DNA of 64,000 bases, from NCBI GenBank assembly GCA_903847205.1, contig CAINDA010000008.1, positions 1 through 64,000 of the forward strand, written 5' to 3'. Position 1 is the stretch's first letter. Every line of letters begins with the position of its first letter. The notes below the pieces were generated by a model. That model did not search any database. It was not told where the DNA came from and was given only the letters and a program-made list of their open reading frames with translations. This document shows positions 1-52,660 of this stretch, piece after piece. This stretch comes from an uncultured Bacteroidota bacterium (GTDB taxonomy: Bacteria; Bacteroidota; Bacteroidia; 2-12-FULL-35-15). The position numbers were made by a program, and so were the translations under genes.

Positions 1-280
1 CTGTACCTAATACCGGTACTGCCGGTAAGGCACCCAAAGACTGCTGCGCAACAGCATGTTTAACAAGGTTTTTATACTGTACTATTGTATGCATATACTG
101 GGTGAAACTTTCCTGCATATTTACAACGTACTGAAAATAGACTGCATCCTTGTGCATGCCTGTAACTTCGTCAGGAGTTATGCCGGCAGCAGCGGCAACG
201 CTTCCTAAATTAGTATCGAAGTTATTAGTCCAAATTACCAAAGCGGGATCGCCGCTTGGCTGAAATCCATGATTATTCAT
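1..280 (-). CDS. Uncharacterised Bacteroidota protein, N-terminal part (cut by window edge)
   Basis: The gene starts at the ATG complementary to 278-280 and stays open to base 1, giving about 93 residues; the C-terminal part lies outside the window. The N-terminus begins NNHGFQPSGDPALVIW and continues with a helical stretch containing TPDEV, then a basic segment (YKNLVKH) and ALPAVPVLG. From memory this matches a family of roughly 200-250 residue Bacteroidota proteins starting F-P-S-x-D-A-D-F/L. They have helical N-terminal halves and a C-terminal fibronectin-like end. The complete gene at 51181-51942 looks like a relative. No signal peptide is visible and I know of no function. Upstream lie a 9-bp stem-loop, a 39-bp palindrome and a 21-bp tandem array. 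Confidence 0.75.
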   Translation of the reverse strand, partial: MNNHGFQPSGDPALVIWTNNFDTNLGSVAAAAGITPDEVTGMHKDAVYFQYVVNMQESFTQYMHTIVQYKNLVKHAVAQQSLGALPAVPVLGT

Positions 281-359
281 GATTTAATATTTTAAAATGA
301 AATTATTTTTTTGGAGCATCCTTTTTCGGGACGACTGAAAGAATGCATTGTAAAAAGCC

Positions 360-392
360 TGTGCCTTTTTTGCCTATTAGTTTAAAGGCACA
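360..392. promoter_or_regulatory. Perfect 9-bp inverted repeat upstream of the gene at 1-280
   Basis: TGTGCCTTT (360-368) pairs perfectly with AAAGGCACA (384-392) around a 15-base loop. It lies 80-112 bp upstream of the minus-strand start at 280, so it would sit in the leader or promoter of that gene. It could be an operator or an mRNA stem-loop; the sequence does not decide which. Confidence 0.4.
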
Positions 393-625
393 ATGGTAAG
401 GGTTTTAAGGGTGTTATCATATTCCGCAATGTTTTTAAATTGTTTAAATAAAAACTCAATATCGCGATTTCCTTATTAAAACGAGGGTATTAAAAAAATA
501 GTATATCTTTTTGAAAAATTAAGTTTTTTTAACAAATCAATTTTTTTTATTTTTCTTATTTAGTTTTCTCTTCATTCATAAAACACCTTTGTTTTAAATA
601 CTTTCAGGCCATTTCTAAAATATTG

Positions 626-664
626 CATCAATTAAAAAAAAATAATATTTTTTTTTAATTGATG
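626..664. other. 39-bp perfect AT-rich palindrome
   Basis: Bases 626-644 are the exact reverse complement of 646-664, with a single central base. The outer part reads CATCAATTA and the inner part is a run of A facing a run of T. It lies between the divergent genes at 280 (minus) and 1474 (plus), and between the first of these and the 21-bp array. It could act as a factor-independent terminator in either direction (stem plus T tract on both strands) or as a cruciform-forming boundary. No coding frame explains it. Confidence 0.7.
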
Positions 665-758
665 GGAAATAAGAAAAGTCAGATGAATAATTTTTTGGAA
701 TTTATTCTTTCCTTTTTGCTTTAAAGAAAATTTATTGAATTTTTATTCCTGCTTAGGT

Positions 759-1262
759 CGTTATTGGGTTTCCTTTTTGCATTGGGGATCCCCCTTTTTG
801 AATTGGGGATTCCCCCGATTACGGCGGGGACTCCCCCTGTTGCGTTGGGGGGCTCCCCAGTTGCGTCGGGGACTCCCCCTATTGAGTTGGGGGCTCCCCC
901 TGTTGAGTTGGGGACTCCCCTTTTTGCATTGGGGGCCTCCCCAGTTGTATTGGGGGCTTCCCCAGTTGTATTGGGGGCTTCCCCAATTGCGGCGGGGACA
1001 CCCACAATTGAGTTGGGGGCTCCCCCTGTTGCGTTGGGGGCTTTCCTTTTTGAATTGGGGTCTTCCCCAATTGCAGCGGGGATTCCCCCTATTGCGTTGG
1101 GGGCTCCACTTTTTGAATTGGGGGCTCCACTAATTGCGTAAGAGATTTCCCATTTTGAATTTGGGACTCCCCTTATTGCGCTCGGGCTTCACCTTTTTGA
1201 ATTGGGGACTCCCCATATTATTACGGGGCTCCCCTTAAATTATTTTATTCCCCCTCTGATTA
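759..1262. repeat. Array 1: about 24 tandem 21-bp units with a GGGGRCTCCCC core
   Basis: The units follow each other without spacers every 21 bp, from 759-779 to 1242-1262; the first, nineteenth and last are degenerate. Most contain GGGG-RCT-CCCC, which can fold on itself as a 4-bp stem with a 3-base loop, followed by a variable trinucleotide and TTG. Variation concentrates at unit positions 1-3 and 16-18, while the core is kept. The array is open in several frames on both strands, but this follows from a period divisible by three and no stop in the unit. No start, ribosome site or family match supports translation. It lies upstream of the gene at 1-280; a second 21-bp array lies upstream of its relative at 51181-51942. 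Confidence 0.9.
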
Positions 1263-12359: not shown

Positions 12360-15300
12360 TTATTTTCTTTTTAAATATTTTCCTTTTCCCTCACTTTTGA
12401 GTTTTGCATAATTGGAGCGTATTCTTATCAGCCAGAACAATCTTTCCTCTTCGTAATATTCATTTATTTCAGGTATGTATTTCTTGAAATATTTGTAAAA
12501 GCCTATAAATGCAGACTTCGACACATCTCCATTGGAATCTTTAATATAATGATAGAAAGGGAAAACGCTTTTCTCTTTTCTGCCCAGCTTATTAATATTC
12601 GCATAACCCAAATGAAGAAATCTTGTTTCAAAATCTCCGTTTAAATATTTTTCAGTATTAAATAATTTCCACAAAAAACTATTTGAAACAGAACTGCCAA
12701 TTTGATTTTCGTATTTATACAAATACCAGCTCAGGATAAAAGTCTTTCTGGATGCACTTTTGTAAGAATAAAAGAAAGGCTGTATTGAAAACATTTTTGA
12801 AGTATCCGTTTTTTTATACCAGACAAAAGGGGCAACTCTGAAATAATTGTTGTTGTCAAATTTTAAATGATCGCAAATGGGCCAAAGTATTGATGTTTCG
12901 GAATAATTTGGCTTCTTGGTTTTTCTAAAAACAAAAAACAGTAGGGAAGAATGTTTTTCATTTTCCTTCTTTTCATAAAAGAACACTGGGAAGAGAAACA
13001 TTTTTGTTTTAACTGAATTGCGGAAAATTCCTGCAAAGGGTGTAATCATAAAATGAGTTTCTGTGCGGCTTGAATTATGCCCGAAAGAAAACAATGGGAA
13101 GAAAGTAAATGAATGATAACCCAGATTTTTGAAGCTGTATATCAAAGGGAAAAGCACTTTATTGTTTTTATATTTATTTTTAACCGACCAATAAATCGGG
13201 AAGAAAGTACTCTTCGTTATTGTGTCATTATTGCGATACCTCTCAGTTCTCCAAAATAGGGGGAATAAAACATCCTTCTTATAATTAGGGCGGCTCAAAT
13301 GCCAATAAAATGGCGTGACTGCGAAATAACTTCTGCTCCTGTCATAGGTATGTCCGCTCGAAAAAAGCGGGAAGAAAGTGAAGGACTGATAATTCCAATC
13401 TTTGAAACTCCATAGTAATGGAAAAAGTATTTTATCGTTTTTATCCTTGCTTTTTACAGACCAGTAAATTGGGAAAAAAACAGCTCTATTTATTGTGTCG
13501 AGATTAAGATACTGCTGCGTTTTCCAAAAGAGCGGGAACAAAACATCTTTCTTATAATCGGCTCTTTCCCAATGCCAGTATAAAGGCGTAACTGCGAAAT
13601 AACTCTTGCTCCAATCATTTGTATGACCGTTTGAAAAAAGAGGAAAAAAAGTAAAGGATCGGTAATATTTGTCATTAAAAATATAGAGAAGCGGGAAAAG
13701 TACTTTATTGTTTTTATCCTTGCTTTTTACCGACCAATAAATCGGGAAGAGTGCGGCTTTAGTTATTGTGTCATCACTTAGGTACTGCTCCGTTTTCCAA
13801 AAGAGTGGGAACAAAACATCCTTCTTATAATCGGGTCTTTCCAAATGCCAGTATAAAGGCGTAACCGCGAAATAACTCCTGCTCCAATCAGAGGTATGGC
13901 CGTTTGAAAAAAGAGGGAAAAAAGTGAAGGACTGATAATATTTGTCATTAAAAATATAGAGCAGGGGGAAAAGTATTTTATTGTTTTTATCCTTGCTTTT
14001 TACCGACCAATAAATCGGGAAGAGAGTGGTTTTTGTTATGGTGTCATCACTAAGGTACTGTTCCGTTTTCCAAAAGAGAGGGAACAGAATATCTTTTTTA
14101 TAATTCGTTCTTTCCAGATGCCAATACAAAGGAGTGACCGCAAAATAGCTGCTGCTCCAATCCCAGATATGGCCGCTTGAAAAAAACGGAATAAAAGTGA
14201 AAGACTGGTAATCCCTGTTATTAAAGCTGTATAGGAGAGGGAAAAGTACTTTGTTGTTTTTATTCTTGCTCTTTACTGACCAGTAAATCGGGAAGAGAGT
14301 AGTTTTATTTATGGTGTCATTATCGAGATAACGCTCGGTTCTCCAAAAAACAGGGAACAAAACATCCTTCTTATAATTGATGCGGTTCAAGTGCCAATAC
14401 AATGGTGTTACTGCAAAATAGCTCCTGCTCAAATCGGTTTTCTGTCCGGCTGAAAAAAGCGGAAAAAAAGTAAAAGACTGATGATACTTGTCTTTAAAAA
14501 TATAGAGCAGCGGAAAAAGTACTTTGGTGTTTTTATCCTTACTTTTTAATGACCAATAAATAGGAAAGAGTGCAGCTTTATTAATAGTGTCATCATGCAC
14601 ATAACGCTCGCTTTTCCAAAAGAAAGGAAACAACACATCCTTGGTGTAATTGGGGCGGTTTAAATGCCAGTAGAAAGGAGTAACTGCGAAATAGCTTCGT
14701 CTTGAATCGCCGCTTTGTCCTGCAGAAAAAAGCGGAAAAAAAGTAAAGGATTGATAATACTTGTCTTTAAGAATATACAGCAAAGGGAATAGGACTTTAT
14801 TGTTTTTATCCTTGCTTTTTACTGACCAATAAATGGGGAAGAGAGTGGTTCTATTTATGGTGTCATTATAAACATAACGCTGGCTTCTCCAAAACACCGG
14901 CAGCAAAATATCTTTTTTATAATTCGGACGGTTTAAGTGCCAATACAGCGGAGTAACTGCAAAATAGCTCCGGCTGGAATCAGATTTTTGACCGATCGAA
15001 AAAAGAGGAAAAAAAGTGAATGACTTGTAATGACTGTCTTTAAAGCTATACAGCAATGGGAAAATTACTTTATTGTTTTCATTCTTGCTTTTTACCGACC
15101 AGTAAATGGGAAAGATGGTAGTTTTCTTTACTGTGTCATCAGTGTAATAGCGCTCGTTTTTCCAAAAAAGAGGGAATAAAATATCCGTTTTAGAATCAGC
15201 AAGATTCAGATGCCAGTATAGAGGCGTAACGGCGAAATAGCTTTCGTCCGACACGTAGTTTTCACCGGCAGAGAAAAGCGGGAAAAAAGTAAATGATTCA

Positions 15301-16667
15301 TAATTTTTGTTTTTGAAACTATATAGTAAAGGGAAAACTATTTTATTGTTTTTATCCTTGCTTTCTTCCGACCAGAAAATCGGGAAGAGGGTAGTTTTCG
15401 TTACGGTGTCATCAGTGTAATATCGCTCTGTTCTCCAGAAGACCGGAAACAAAACATCTTTTTTATAATTGGTCCGGTTTAGGTGCCAGAACAAAGGAGT
15501 AAATGCGAAATAATTTTGATCAGAATCGTAGTTTTGTCCGGCTGAAAAAAGCGGAAAAAAAGTAAATGATTCATAATTTTTGTTTTTGAAACTATATAGT
15601 AAAGGGAAAACTATTTTATTGTTTTTATCCTTGCTTTCTTCAGACCAGTAAATGGGGAAGAGGGTAGTTTTCCTTACTGTATCATCATTATAATAGCGCT
15701 CGCTTCTCCAAAATATTGGGAACAAAATATCTTTCTTATAATTGATTTCATTCAAATGCCAGAATAATGGAGTAACTGCTAAATAGCGGCTCTTCAGATC
15801 AGGCGTGCTGCCTTTTGAATAAAACGGAAAAAAAGTAAATGAATGATAAGCCTTGTCTTTATAGCTGTAAAGCAAAGGAAAAAAGATTTTGTCATTTTCA
15901 TCCTTGTTTTTTACTGACCAATAAAGTGGGAACAGTGTGGTTTTTTTGATTGTATCATTATTGAAATAACGTTCAGTTTTCCAAAAGAGAGGGAACAAAA
16001 TATTTTTTTTCTCGTTTTTTGTTTTTTCAGAATAATACAAAAAGGCGACGTCGAGTTTTTGTTCATTTAAACTTTTTGTTTTAAAATACAGCGGAAAAAG
16101 TAAACGAGTTGTGTCAATACTATTAGCAAACGACCAATAGGCCGGGAAAACAACAAATCGTGTTTTATATAAAAGCATATCTCTTTTATACCAGATGAAA
16201 AAGAACAGGTTGTTTTCAACAAACAATCCGCTGGGCGACCGGCTTACGCTCAAGCATGAAATATTAGGGGCAAGTTCTAAAAATTTGTAAGAATTTATTT
16301 TAGTATTTGAGCTGTTTTGTTTTTGAATATGAAAAACTGATGGGTAGTAAAAAGAAAGGAAACGTTTATCAATGCCTTGAGAACTGCTGTCGTTAATAAC
16401 AAAGGGTAAAAACTGCAGATGTTTAGTATGCAGTTTGTAATTATTAGTTTTCGAAAAAATAGGATACAAAATCTGCAGCTCATTTTTTTCTGAACTTTTG
16501 AATTTTTTTAAGACCGGCCACAAATTAATATTGCGGTCTCTCGTTATTCCTAAATCGAAAGTGAGATTTTTTTTTGTGCTGTCCTGCTGAGAAAACGTGG
16601 TGCTTGAAGCAAAGAGTACTATAAAAAGAAGAAGGATGTTTTTTACACAAAAACTTTTTAAAATCAT
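12360..16667 (-). CDS. Giant secreted protein with eleven 91-residue aromatic repeats
   Basis: A 1435-residue protein with a signal peptide (residues about 1-27, ending TFSQ). Residues 224-1224 are eleven head-to-tail repeats of exactly 91 residues. Each has five hydrophobic blocks with Pro and aromatics (LFPxFW, LFPIYW, LFPLLY, FTFFPLFS, YFAVTPLYW) linked by charged stretches such as ERYxxDDT and KSKDKNNK. Flanking regions at both ends carry looser forms of the same blocks. The alternating strands suggest a beta-solenoid, a large propeller or an outer-membrane barrel. I recognise no family. No T9SS domain is visible. It stands alone on the minus strand between cytochrome and beta-oxidation genes. 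Confidence 0.8.
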   Translation of the reverse strand: MILKSFCVKNILLLFIVLFASSTTFSQQDSTKKNLTFDLGITRDRNINLWPVLKKFKSSEKNELQILYPIFSKTNNYKLHTKHLQFLPFVINDSSSQGIDKRFLSFYYPSVFHIQKQNSSNTKINSYKFLELAPNISCLSVSRSPSGLFVENNLFFFIWYKRDMLLYKTRFVVFPAYWSFANSIDTTRLLFPLYFKTKSLNEQKLDVAFLYYSEKTKNEKKNILFPLFWKTERYFNNDTIKKTTLFPLYWSVKNKDENDKIFFPLLYSYKDKAYHSFTFFPFYSKGSTPDLKSRYLAVTPLFWHLNEINYKKDILFPIFWRSERYYNDDTVRKTTLFPIYWSEESKDKNNKIVFPLLYSFKNKNYESFTFFPLFSAGQNYDSDQNYFAFTPLFWHLNRTNYKKDVLFPVFWRTERYYTDDTVTKTTLFPIFWSEESKDKNNKIVFPLLYSFKNKNYESFTFFPLFSAGENYVSDESYFAVTPLYWHLNLADSKTDILFPLFWKNERYYTDDTVKKTTIFPIYWSVKSKNENNKVIFPLLYSFKDSHYKSFTFFPLFSIGQKSDSSRSYFAVTPLYWHLNRPNYKKDILLPVFWRSQRYVYNDTINRTTLFPIYWSVKSKDKNNKVLFPLLYILKDKYYQSFTFFPLFSAGQSGDSRRSYFAVTPFYWHLNRPNYTKDVLFPFFWKSERYVHDDTINKAALFPIYWSLKSKDKNTKVLFPLLYIFKDKYHQSFTFFPLFSAGQKTDLSRSYFAVTPLYWHLNRINYKKDVLFPVFWRTERYLDNDTINKTTLFPIYWSVKSKNKNNKVLFPLLYSFNNRDYQSFTFIPFFSSGHIWDWSSSYFAVTPLYWHLERTNYKKDILFPLFWKTEQYLSDDTITKTTLFPIYWSVKSKDKNNKILFPLLYIFNDKYYQSFTFFPLFSNGHTSDWSRSYFAVTPLYWHLERPDYKKDVLFPLFWKTEQYLSDDTITKAALFPIYWSVKSKDKNNKVLFPLLYIFNDKYYRSFTFFPLFSNGHTNDWSKSYFAVTPLYWHWERADYKKDVLFPLFWKTQQYLNLDTINRAVFFPIYWSVKSKDKNDKILFPLLWSFKDWNYQSFTFFPLFSSGHTYDRSRSYFAVTPFYWHLSRPNYKKDVLFPLFWRTERYRNNDTITKSTFFPIYWSVKNKYKNNKVLFPLIYSFKNLGYHSFTFFPLFSFGHNSSRTETHFMITPFAGIFRNSVKTKMFLFPVFFYEKKENEKHSSLLFFVFRKTKKPNYSETSILWPICDHLKFDNNNYFRVAPFVWYKKTDTSKMFSIQPFFYSYKSASRKTFILSWYLYKYENQIGSSVSNSFLWKLFNTEKYLNGDFETRFLHLGYANINKLGRKEKSVFPFYHYIKDSNGDVSKSAFIGFYKYFKKYIPEINEYYEEERLFWLIRIRSNYAKLKSEGKGKYLKRK
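12996..15998 (-). repeat. Eleven 273-bp coding repeats inside the giant protein gene
   Basis: The period is exactly 273 bp; for example, the word CGACCAATAA recurs at 13731 and 14004. Copies eight and nine are the most alike. Copy two and copy three also share long identical stretches, as expected from recent duplication or gene conversion. There are no frame-breaking length changes between copies. Confidence 0.85.
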
Positions 16668-51112: not shown

Positions 51113-51153
51113 TATAAAAAACAAATTCGGATTCTTTAAATAAGAATCCGAAT
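51113..51153 (-). terminator. Rho-independent terminator of the gene at 51181
   Basis: ATTCGGATTCTT (51125-51136) and AAGAATCCGAAT (51142-51153) form a perfect 12-bp stem with a 5-base loop. On the minus strand the stem is followed by TTTGTTTTTT, placed 28 bp after the stop codon. Confidence 0.85.
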
Positions 51154-51180: not shown

Positions 51181-51942
51181 CTACGATACCGTTACAGTAA
51201 TTGTATTGCTCCAATCGCCGGGCTGTTTGCGGCTGTTGAGGTAGCGTGCTCTTATAATTTCGTCGCCTCCTTTTTGGTCGGCAGTAAAATGTGTTTTGTA
51301 TAAAAACTTGCCGGTGTTGGCAATGTGTAAAAAATCGCTTTCCTGCGGGAAAGCTGGCAATACCGGGCTGCCTGCTGCAGGCGGTAAAGCGGCGGCGGCA
51401 ATAGCTGCGCGTGATTGAAATGCACCTTCTAACTCGGTTGAAGCTACTCCTGCCGGTTTCGACTGTGTGTGCGGGTGGGCAGGGTCGGTGATGCTGAGTA
51501 CAGCAAACAAGTGGCCTATTTCAACAATAGCAATTACAGGGGCATTGGCAGGTATGGCTGCAGGGGTATGGGTACCGCTGTGTGCGGCAATAAGTAATGT
51601 ACTGCGGTCGGTAGTTGTAAGCACCGAATTAGGTATATCATTAATTATGATGCGTATTGATTCTTCTAATTGTTTTCTGCGCGCTGCAATCAGGTCGTTT
51701 ATAGGTTTTGTTCTGGTACTGGGATTATTACGCAGCAGCCATAATTCTTTCCAGCCTAACTCATCGGGTGCTGTATTGGGCGGCGTATTGGGGTTGGTGT
51801 ATAACTTATTTGCATTTGCAAGAAATGCAGCCAAAATACACAAACGTGTGGTGTTCAGCGGGTCGTTAAAATAAGCAATGTCGGTATCAAACTGTGCGTT
51901 AACGTCAGCTAATTTTGATGGAAAGTGTCCTGAAGCAGGCAT
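51181..51942 (-). CDS. Uncharacterised Bacteroidota protein, same family as the gene at 1-280
   Basis: A 253-residue protein without signal peptide. It begins with SGHFPSKLADVNAQFDTDI (family motif F-P-S-x-x-A-D), then a helical half (LCILAAFLANANKLY, LWLLRNNPSTRTKPINDLIAARRKQLEESIRIIIND). PAHPHTQSKPAGVASTELEG is a conserved linker in relatives that I remember. The C-terminal fibronectin-like end is FLYKTHFTADQKGGDEIIRARYLNSRKQPGDWSNTITVTVS. Transcription ends at a strong terminator. A 21-bp tandem array begins 38 bp upstream of the start. Function unknown; cytoplasmic location is inferred from the lack of a signal. Confidence 0.85.
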   Translation of the reverse strand: MPASGHFPSKLADVNAQFDTDIAYFNDPLNTTRLCILAAFLANANKLYTNPNTPPNTAPDELGWKELWLLRNNPSTRTKPINDLIAARRKQLEESIRIIINDIPNSVLTTTDRSTLLIAAHSGTHTPAAIPANAPVIAIVEIGHLFAVLSITDPAHPHTQSKPAGVASTELEGAFQSRAAIAAAALPPAAGSPVLPAFPQESDFLHIANTGKFLYKTHFTADQKGGDEIIRARYLNSRKQPGDWSNTITVTVS

Positions 51943-51979
51943 GTTAATTTAGTTTAGGTTTGTTTATAATTGATTTTTG

Positions 51980-52210
51980 ATTTTAAAATGAAAGTTTTGG
52001 GATTGTAAGCCAAGTAGTTGGTTTCGATCCCAAAACATTTGGGATGAAGCGACAAACATTTGGGATAGGTTATGAAACATTAGTGATAGGCTGCGCAGCA
52101 TTCGGGATGCAGCCGGAAGTACCGGGGACAGTTCCCAAATGTTTTGGGATGGGGAGCGGAACATTGGCTTACGATCCCAAATACTTGGCTTCCAATCCCA
52201 AAAAGTTGCC
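51980..52210. repeat. Array 2: eleven tandem 21-bp units
   Basis: Units begin at 51980, 52001, 52022 and so on to 52190 without spacers. The common pattern on the plus strand is GAT, then about six variable bases, then C-x-A-A-x-ATTTGG. Sequence is less conserved than in array 1 but the period is exact. Some units pair strongly: ATCCCAAA (52027-52034) with TTTGGGAT (52038-52045), and TCCCAAA (52133-52139) with TTTGGGA (52143-52149), both with 3-base loops. The open frame across it on the minus strand has no recognisable protein features. The remaining 52211-52660 shows nothing I can support. Confidence 0.85.
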
Positions 52211-52660
52211 TTTTTAAAGTAAGGTTTGTTTTTATGATTGGGAATAATTGTTAATGGTTCAGAAACAGTTCTCTTTTTATCCGAAAAGAACCTTTTTAAT
52301 ATTAAAAAAAAGCGGAAAGGTTTTAAAAATTGTTTAGAGAAGAGCGCTGCATCAGCCCTGTTTGCAGGCTGCTGTGCTGAAATAAAGAAACTGCCGGAGT
52401 GTGTCATTGCTGCTGCGATAATCATTTCGGAGGCGATATTAAATATTTTAGAGAAGGAAAATTATGATATAAAGCAGAAAAAAGTATGACGAAAGGATAA
52501 TGGTTGGTTTTAAGCCAAGAGTGGTAAGGTTAAAAGGATAAGTAGTATTTATTCAGCCAATGGCCTAAACGTAAAATATATAGAGCCCAATATTTGAGTA
52601 TTGCCGGCCGGCATTTGTATATAGTTTTTGTGTAATTTAGAAAATGTAATTTTTTTTGAA

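Follow-up and report, generated by a model that had tools for sequence, protein, structure and literature searches.

Two genes in the 64,000-nucleotide stretch of DNA from an uncultured Bacteroidota bacterium analyzed here (the window) are each preceded by a tandem array with a period of 21 bp, and this pairing of array and gene is real and recurs across many Bacteroidota genomes. With one detector and one threshold, the 900 bp on the upstream side include a 21-bp array for 61 of 74 members of the gene superfamily, compared with 1/68 on the downstream side. Array, gene, and terminator disperse as one unit, and the account of the locus at 51181–52213 that we favor, with about even confidence, is that it is one of the dispersed copies of a two-part cassette in which the array is a row of phased, iteron-like protein-binding sites with a locus-specific sequence.

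The gene of this locus (51181–51942, minus strand) is an uninterrupted open reading frame for a 253-residue protein, assigned to type A of the superfamily on the basis of the reading frame, an AlphaFold2 model, structural matches, and homologues. An AT-rich leader (51943–51989, minus strand), comparable to that seen in most members, connects the start codon to a degenerate array of ∼10.6 units (∼51990–52213, no strand assigned) that includes dyads such as ATCCCAAATGTTTTGGGAT and was delimited by autocorrelation against shuffled sequence and by unit stacking. The best 126-bp stretch of the array has a lag-21 match fraction of 0.55, compared with a maximum of 0.44 among 1000 dinucleotide shuffles; the array is not reported by Tandem Repeats Finder. 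Directly after the gene, a terminator-like hairpin with a T-run (51114–51153, minus strand) forms the 3′ end of the cassette.

The second locus (1–1219) holds the N-terminal 93 codons of a type B member (1–280, minus strand), recognized from its reading frame and from the homology of the type A and type B profiles. Since position 1 of the window is the edge of contig C8, this gene is truncated by the assembly and not biologically; other copies of it are present in the same genome. Near-identical type B copies are found at four contig ends (C8, C68, C5, and C63), as two upstream and two downstream halves; the cassette thus breaks the assembly, and its copy number in the genome is understated. 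A long leader (281–770, minus strand), conserved in a second copy (L006), separates the gene from an array of ∼21 units (771–1219, no strand assigned) with the core GGGGACTCCCC and a TTGNNTT spacer, identified by Tandem Repeats Finder, unit stacking, and autocorrelation (lag-21 match 0.81, maximum of the dinucleotide shuffles 0.48). The first-pass annotation had reported an array of 21-bp period 5′ of both genes, which the lag-21 values bear out, and had noticed no other 21-bp array in the 64 kb. The latter holds for non-coding DNA, where these two arrays are the only ones of period 21, but not for coding DNA, where a third, weak signal (2109–2413) corresponds to a 7-residue repeat inside an open reading frame at 1474–2823. 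Coding 7-residue repeats are a trivial source of 21-bp arrays that any naive scan will count; others lie in long open reading frames at L074:3874–4348 and L137:1245–1730. The window also contains a 273-bp tandem repeat in 10.5 copies (13138–16000, Tandem Repeats Finder).

A direct search with either window protein does not return the other, and small alignments of the two families match over the C-terminal 41 columns only. The type A and type B family profiles (27 and 25 members, respectively) can be aligned by hhalign across 198 columns (probability 96%, E = 1.3e-9). On this profile evidence, the genes at 51181–51942 and 1–280 belong to one superfamily, as had been proposed from their sequences, and are homologous over their full length, with a predicted N-terminal helix bundle and C-terminal fibronectin-III (FN3) fold. 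AlphaFold2 models of both types (mean pLDDT 92 for type A and 91 for type B) place helices at the N terminus and a beta sandwich after them, with predicted helices at residues 11–115 and strands at residues 136–251 of the type A protein; because the pTM is only 0.54–0.58, the relative placement of the helix and beta domains in the models is uncertain. The best structural matches of both predicted models in the PDB are FN3 domains. At the sequence level, a more distant member (L181) matches the PF00041 fn3 family with 32.6 bits (cut-off 25), and P0001 and most other members score below this cut-off. Similar to FN3 proteins (PF00041) in their C-terminal domain, the family proteins differ from them in the N-terminal helix bundle, for which there is no curated Pfam or NCBIfam family. 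Searches of Pfam, NCBIfam, and PDB sequences yielded no further family with a significant match to the window types, and no DNA-binding domain was recognized in the family proteins by Pfam, NCBIfam, or fold matches; most of the proteins are near-neutral in charge. The superfamily is multi-copy in carrier genomes. A phage, plasmid, or defense origin was considered and rejected, as there was no match to the family in phages, plasmids, viral contigs, or PADLOC; in PHROG, two members have one weak match each.

Homologues were gathered by profile searches of the window's own genome and of other Bacteroidota genomes. At a stricter threshold than the one used for the counts given above, the upstream 21-bp array is found in 57/74 members. 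Other periods upstream of members are rare (none at 18, 19, 22, or 23 bp, two at 20 bp, and one at 24 bp), and the members below threshold include some with arrays of period 42, 41, 62, or 20. In sampled regions of carrier genomes, an upstream array is present at 15 of 20 family genes versus 29 of 924 other genes (odds ratio 93, Fisher p = 1e-17), the background being 20-kb stretches that lie partly on contigs chosen for carrying family genes; because related genes are counted as independent, the p value is nominal, but the effect size is not in doubt. The association suspected in the first-pass annotation is thus seen both among the homologues and in comparison with other genes. One later homologue search gave an array at 11/11 of the members found, and two arrays located by scanning alone (at L080 and L093) pointed to family genes absent from the results of the first two single-protein searches.

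When 1.26 Mb of two carrier genomes were scanned for periods of 15–30 bp, 33 arrays were found at 21 bp, 29 of them non-coding, compared with 0–3 non-coding arrays at each other period; 21 bp is likewise the only common period of non-coding arrays in two genomes from other families of the phylum (G450 and G538). No genuine 21-bp array was seen in ∼700 kb from genomes without a detected family member, the spurious matches being three runs of N and one GGGTTTT repeat. It should be noted that this is a good but not perfect control: family absence was judged by profiles that may miss distant members, and one of the control genomes (G142) has a weak type C member. The type C members L211, L228, and L233 have arrays with periods of 20, 41, or 62 bp, which are not multiples of 21; the period can thus drift by about half a base per unit.

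The order of elements in the cassette is array, leader, gene, and terminator. Arrays comprise ∼5–37 units of 21 bp (median 10.6), the distance from the array end to the ATG has a median of 94 bp, and a terminator-like hairpin lies within 240 nt downstream of 44/59 family genes. For the paralogous copies L005/L006 and L007/L008, homology begins near the 5′ end of the array and stops shortly past the terminator, and the recurring two-part locus that had been postulated is indeed what disperses, terminator included. Unit number changes in whole-unit steps, as seen in L050 and L062, which are otherwise near identical and differ in length by 63 bp (i.e., three units). No consistent promoter was found between array and gene, and a canonical Bacteroidota promoter is found at few loci only.

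The contrast first noticed between the two window arrays, a diverging sequence with a persistent period and position, is seen across the family loci. Array similarity rises above the null only where the proteins are more than ∼50% identical, and it does not distinguishably track either the N- or the C-terminal half of the protein. Dyad symmetry exceeds that of column-permuted controls (mean z 2.0 over 49 arrays), although this null destroys nearest-neighbor composition, such that A- or T-runs could account for some of the signal. Taken one by one, about half of the arrays fall short of significance as palindromes, and the covariation of dyad positions is no more than suggestive (mean z 0.30 ± 0.16). 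The arrays also fold better than column-permuted arrays, by the same margin on either strand (z −1.79 and −1.75, difference −0.03 ± 0.16), which argues for double-stranded DNA rather than a one-strand RNA. Orientation varies: L034 and L039 have genes that are 91% identical and a 60-bp leader that is 100% identical, with arrays that are mutually inverted, and an inverted relative orientation occurs in 4 of the 12 array pairs that can be oriented. Most arrays have all 21 columns conserved, without spacers, and a division of the unit into a conserved and a variable half is weak overall (mean z 0.58) and strong for L108 only. The array upstream of the L108 gene is repeat-spacer-like, each unit consisting of a 10-bp palindrome that stays constant, GCTGCGCAGC, and 11 bp that vary. 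Near 52100, the window array contains a single instance of this palindrome.

Arrays are not confined to family genes: in carrier genomes, roughly one half to two thirds of them are solo arrays, with no family gene alongside. Several of them sit between convergent genes, and solo arrays are dyad-symmetric too (mean z 1.7 ± 0.3). One solo array, at L092:11785–12060, lies between genes for non-family proteins of 1391 and 308 residues. We rejected the idea that solo arrays are relics of lost cassettes, as tblastn with family proteins found homology at only 2/30 arrays, and both of these "solo" arrays adjoin intact FN3-type genes that the profile had missed. Among the cassettes collected, a subset of those in these genomes, a clear match to a cassette array of the same genome was found for 1 of 25 solo arrays: L144:12547–12699 is 0.93 similar to the L034 cassette array and has no gene homology, indicating that an array can occur without its gene.

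The array-gene unit matches none of the known systems with which we compared it, and we take it to be new within the scope of the open-access literature, in which no description of the pairing was found; this is weak evidence of novelty, given that an unlisted description could exist. Nearest in geometry are iteron arrays. The iterons of theta plasmids are tandem Rep-binding sites 5′ of rep, each spanning about two turns of the helix and in phase with the next, with a replicon-specific sequence. The arrays described here are likewise tandem, in helical phase, and directly 5′ of a gene, but they are chromosomal, multi-copy, more palindromic, and invertible, with no replicon function suggested, and the neighboring protein is not an initiator, with no replication-initiator (Rep) or winged-helix match in Pfam, NCBIfam, or fold comparisons. 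TIGR-Tas, CRISPR, REP-RAYT, and BrickBuilt do not describe the unit either, since each fails in a defining feature. REP/BIME elements with RAYT genes (REPtrons) are palindromic repeats that occur both in association with a gene and scattered elsewhere, in many cases between genes that converge or run in the same direction (PMC3733652). The present arrays are similarly palindromic, gene-associated, and dispersed; unlike REPs, they have a fixed 21-bp head-to-tail period and a sequence that is nearly unique to each locus, and the neighboring protein has no Y1-HUH tyrosine transposase match (Pfam, NCBIfam, structural matches). TIGR-Tas loci have two alternating repeats of 8–12 nt, 9-nt spacers, and a Nop-domain Tas protein (PMC12045711). 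They share with the present loci an array that adjoins one gene, a constant architecture, locus-specific repeats, and a period of 19–21 nt per half unit; they differ in that our arrays are mostly without spacers (L108 alone being repeat-spacer-like), strand-symmetric, and invertible, next to proteins of FN3 fold without a Nop-domain match in Pfam. Unlike CRISPR, most arrays have no unique spacers of similar length, and the protein has no match in PADLOC. Finally, the BrickBuilt MITE of Porphyromonas gingivalis is also an intergenic tandem minisatellite of the Bacteroidota, of about two helical turns and with many copies per genome; its 23-nt unit has one conserved sequence and terminal inverted repeats, whereas the unit sequence here varies by locus, and the abstract describes no partner gene (PMC4596501).

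A constant period, a changing sequence, tolerated inversion, dyad symmetry, and a fixed position together fit a row of phased protein sites. DNA makes one helical turn per 10.5 bp, and no whole number below 21 (2 × 10.5) is a multiple of this value, so all sites stay in phase when units of 21 bp are duplicated in tandem. The array would act as double-stranded DNA, independently of its orientation, and present, along one face of the helix, a row of putative sites to which a dimeric or multimeric protein would bind; the binder would read the sequence, its specificity drifting with the cassette lineage, and duplication and recombination would homogenize the units within each array. The likeliest use would be iteron- or operator-like control of the adjacent gene, with cooperative binding and expression tunable by copy number, and solo arrays would be copies of such sites without a gene. 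That the putative binder is the neighboring protein rather than a separate factor is a tentative suggestion that we regard as somewhat doubtful: the protein is an economical candidate because array sequence follows protein lineage, but descent alone predicts the same. Several observations count against this reading of the array as a whole: several solo arrays lie between convergent genes, a setting with no evident use for an operator; most of the proteins are near-neutral, with no DNA-binding domain recognized; no consistent promoter was found; and dyad covariation is no more than suggestive, with about half of the arrays not significant palindromes on their own. Above all, the reading leaves unexplained the solo arrays at gene ends. 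A broader and speculative proposal, which we consider rather unlikely, is that the cassettes constitute a new kind of chromosomal element, dispersed in the genome, whose own DNA-recognition system, possibly the helix-bundle/FN3 protein and specific to each cassette, reads the array of that cassette, sequence and specificity co-diversifying while the geometry stays fixed. Constant geometry combined with free sequence is an uncommon signature and would separate what the protein needs from the DNA (phase and symmetry) from letters that can drift, and if the array is indeed the cognate site of the neighboring or another protein, the natural pairs would provide a data set for specificity and co-evolution.

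The solo arrays are better explained, and the cassette geometry worse, if the arrays are REP/BIME-like selfish repeats, i.e., mobile or self-amplifying palindromic DNA spread by some enzyme, with the FN3-protein gene as a passenger or a RAYT-like mobility partner. Palindromic units, dispersed copies, solo arrays that often lie between convergent genes, as REPs do (PMC3733652), and the resemblance of the L144 solo array to the L034 cassette array all point in this direction; if the arrays do spread by themselves, they would be a new kind of bacterial mobile repeat. We nevertheless consider this unlikely, because L144 is the only clear match of its kind among the cassettes collected, the FN3-fold protein has no transposase match, and a REP family would not be expected to combine a fixed in-phase 21-bp period with a sequence that is new at almost all loci. 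The arrays could instead be minisatellites that tune expression, their length or helical phase setting the level of a surface or matrix protein in a sequence-blind manner (as curvature or spacer). Whole-unit changes in copy number, a position just 5′ of the gene, a sequence that is free to change, and a predicted curvature above that of the flanks are consistent with such a role, which we judge quite unlikely: close relatives keep a similar sequence even when it is inverted, solo arrays lie away from promoters, and intrinsic curvature was rejected as a selected property, because, unlike dyad symmetry, it is no higher than in column-permuted arrays (z 0.16 ± 0.19).

The first-pass annotation had also raised a template role for the array. 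In an RNA role, the repeats would be transcribed as guides or hairpins that work with the protein, as in CRISPR, TIGR-Tas, or sRNA systems. A single adjoining gene and a repeat sequence that differs by locus, as in TIGR (PMC12045711), are compatible with an RNA array, as are the constant palindrome and variable part of the L108 units, but we find it very unlikely in view of non-coding arrays that fold without strand asymmetry, occur inverted, and for the most part have no spacer, all 21 columns being conserved; nor is there a Nop, Cas, or other RNA-binding match in the protein or an Rfam family above threshold, the best array match falling below it. As 21 = 3 × 7, the arrays might finally be coding heptads (i.e., 7-residue protein repeats), which is the case for the open reading frame at 1474–2823, L074, and L137, and the L066 array reads as heptads. 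For the array class as a whole this is hardly credible and was rejected on stop codons and open-frame counts: 19/59 arrays have stops in all six frames, and open frames are about as numerous as expected from column shuffling (32 sense versus 25 ± 3 and 30 antisense versus 29 ± 3). Arrays of period 20, 41, or 62 likewise speak against it.

Two pairs of paralogues have protein halves that are unequally conserved (L096/L102, 95% in the N-terminal and 64% in the C-terminal half; L098/L101, 58% and 88%, respectively), which, at the level of sequence, suggests domain exchange. In both L096 and L102, an ATG-containing segment (MATKDKYK[DV]FYNK) is conserved ahead of the array, ∼350 bp 5′ of the gene; it may be a short open reading frame or an array leader.
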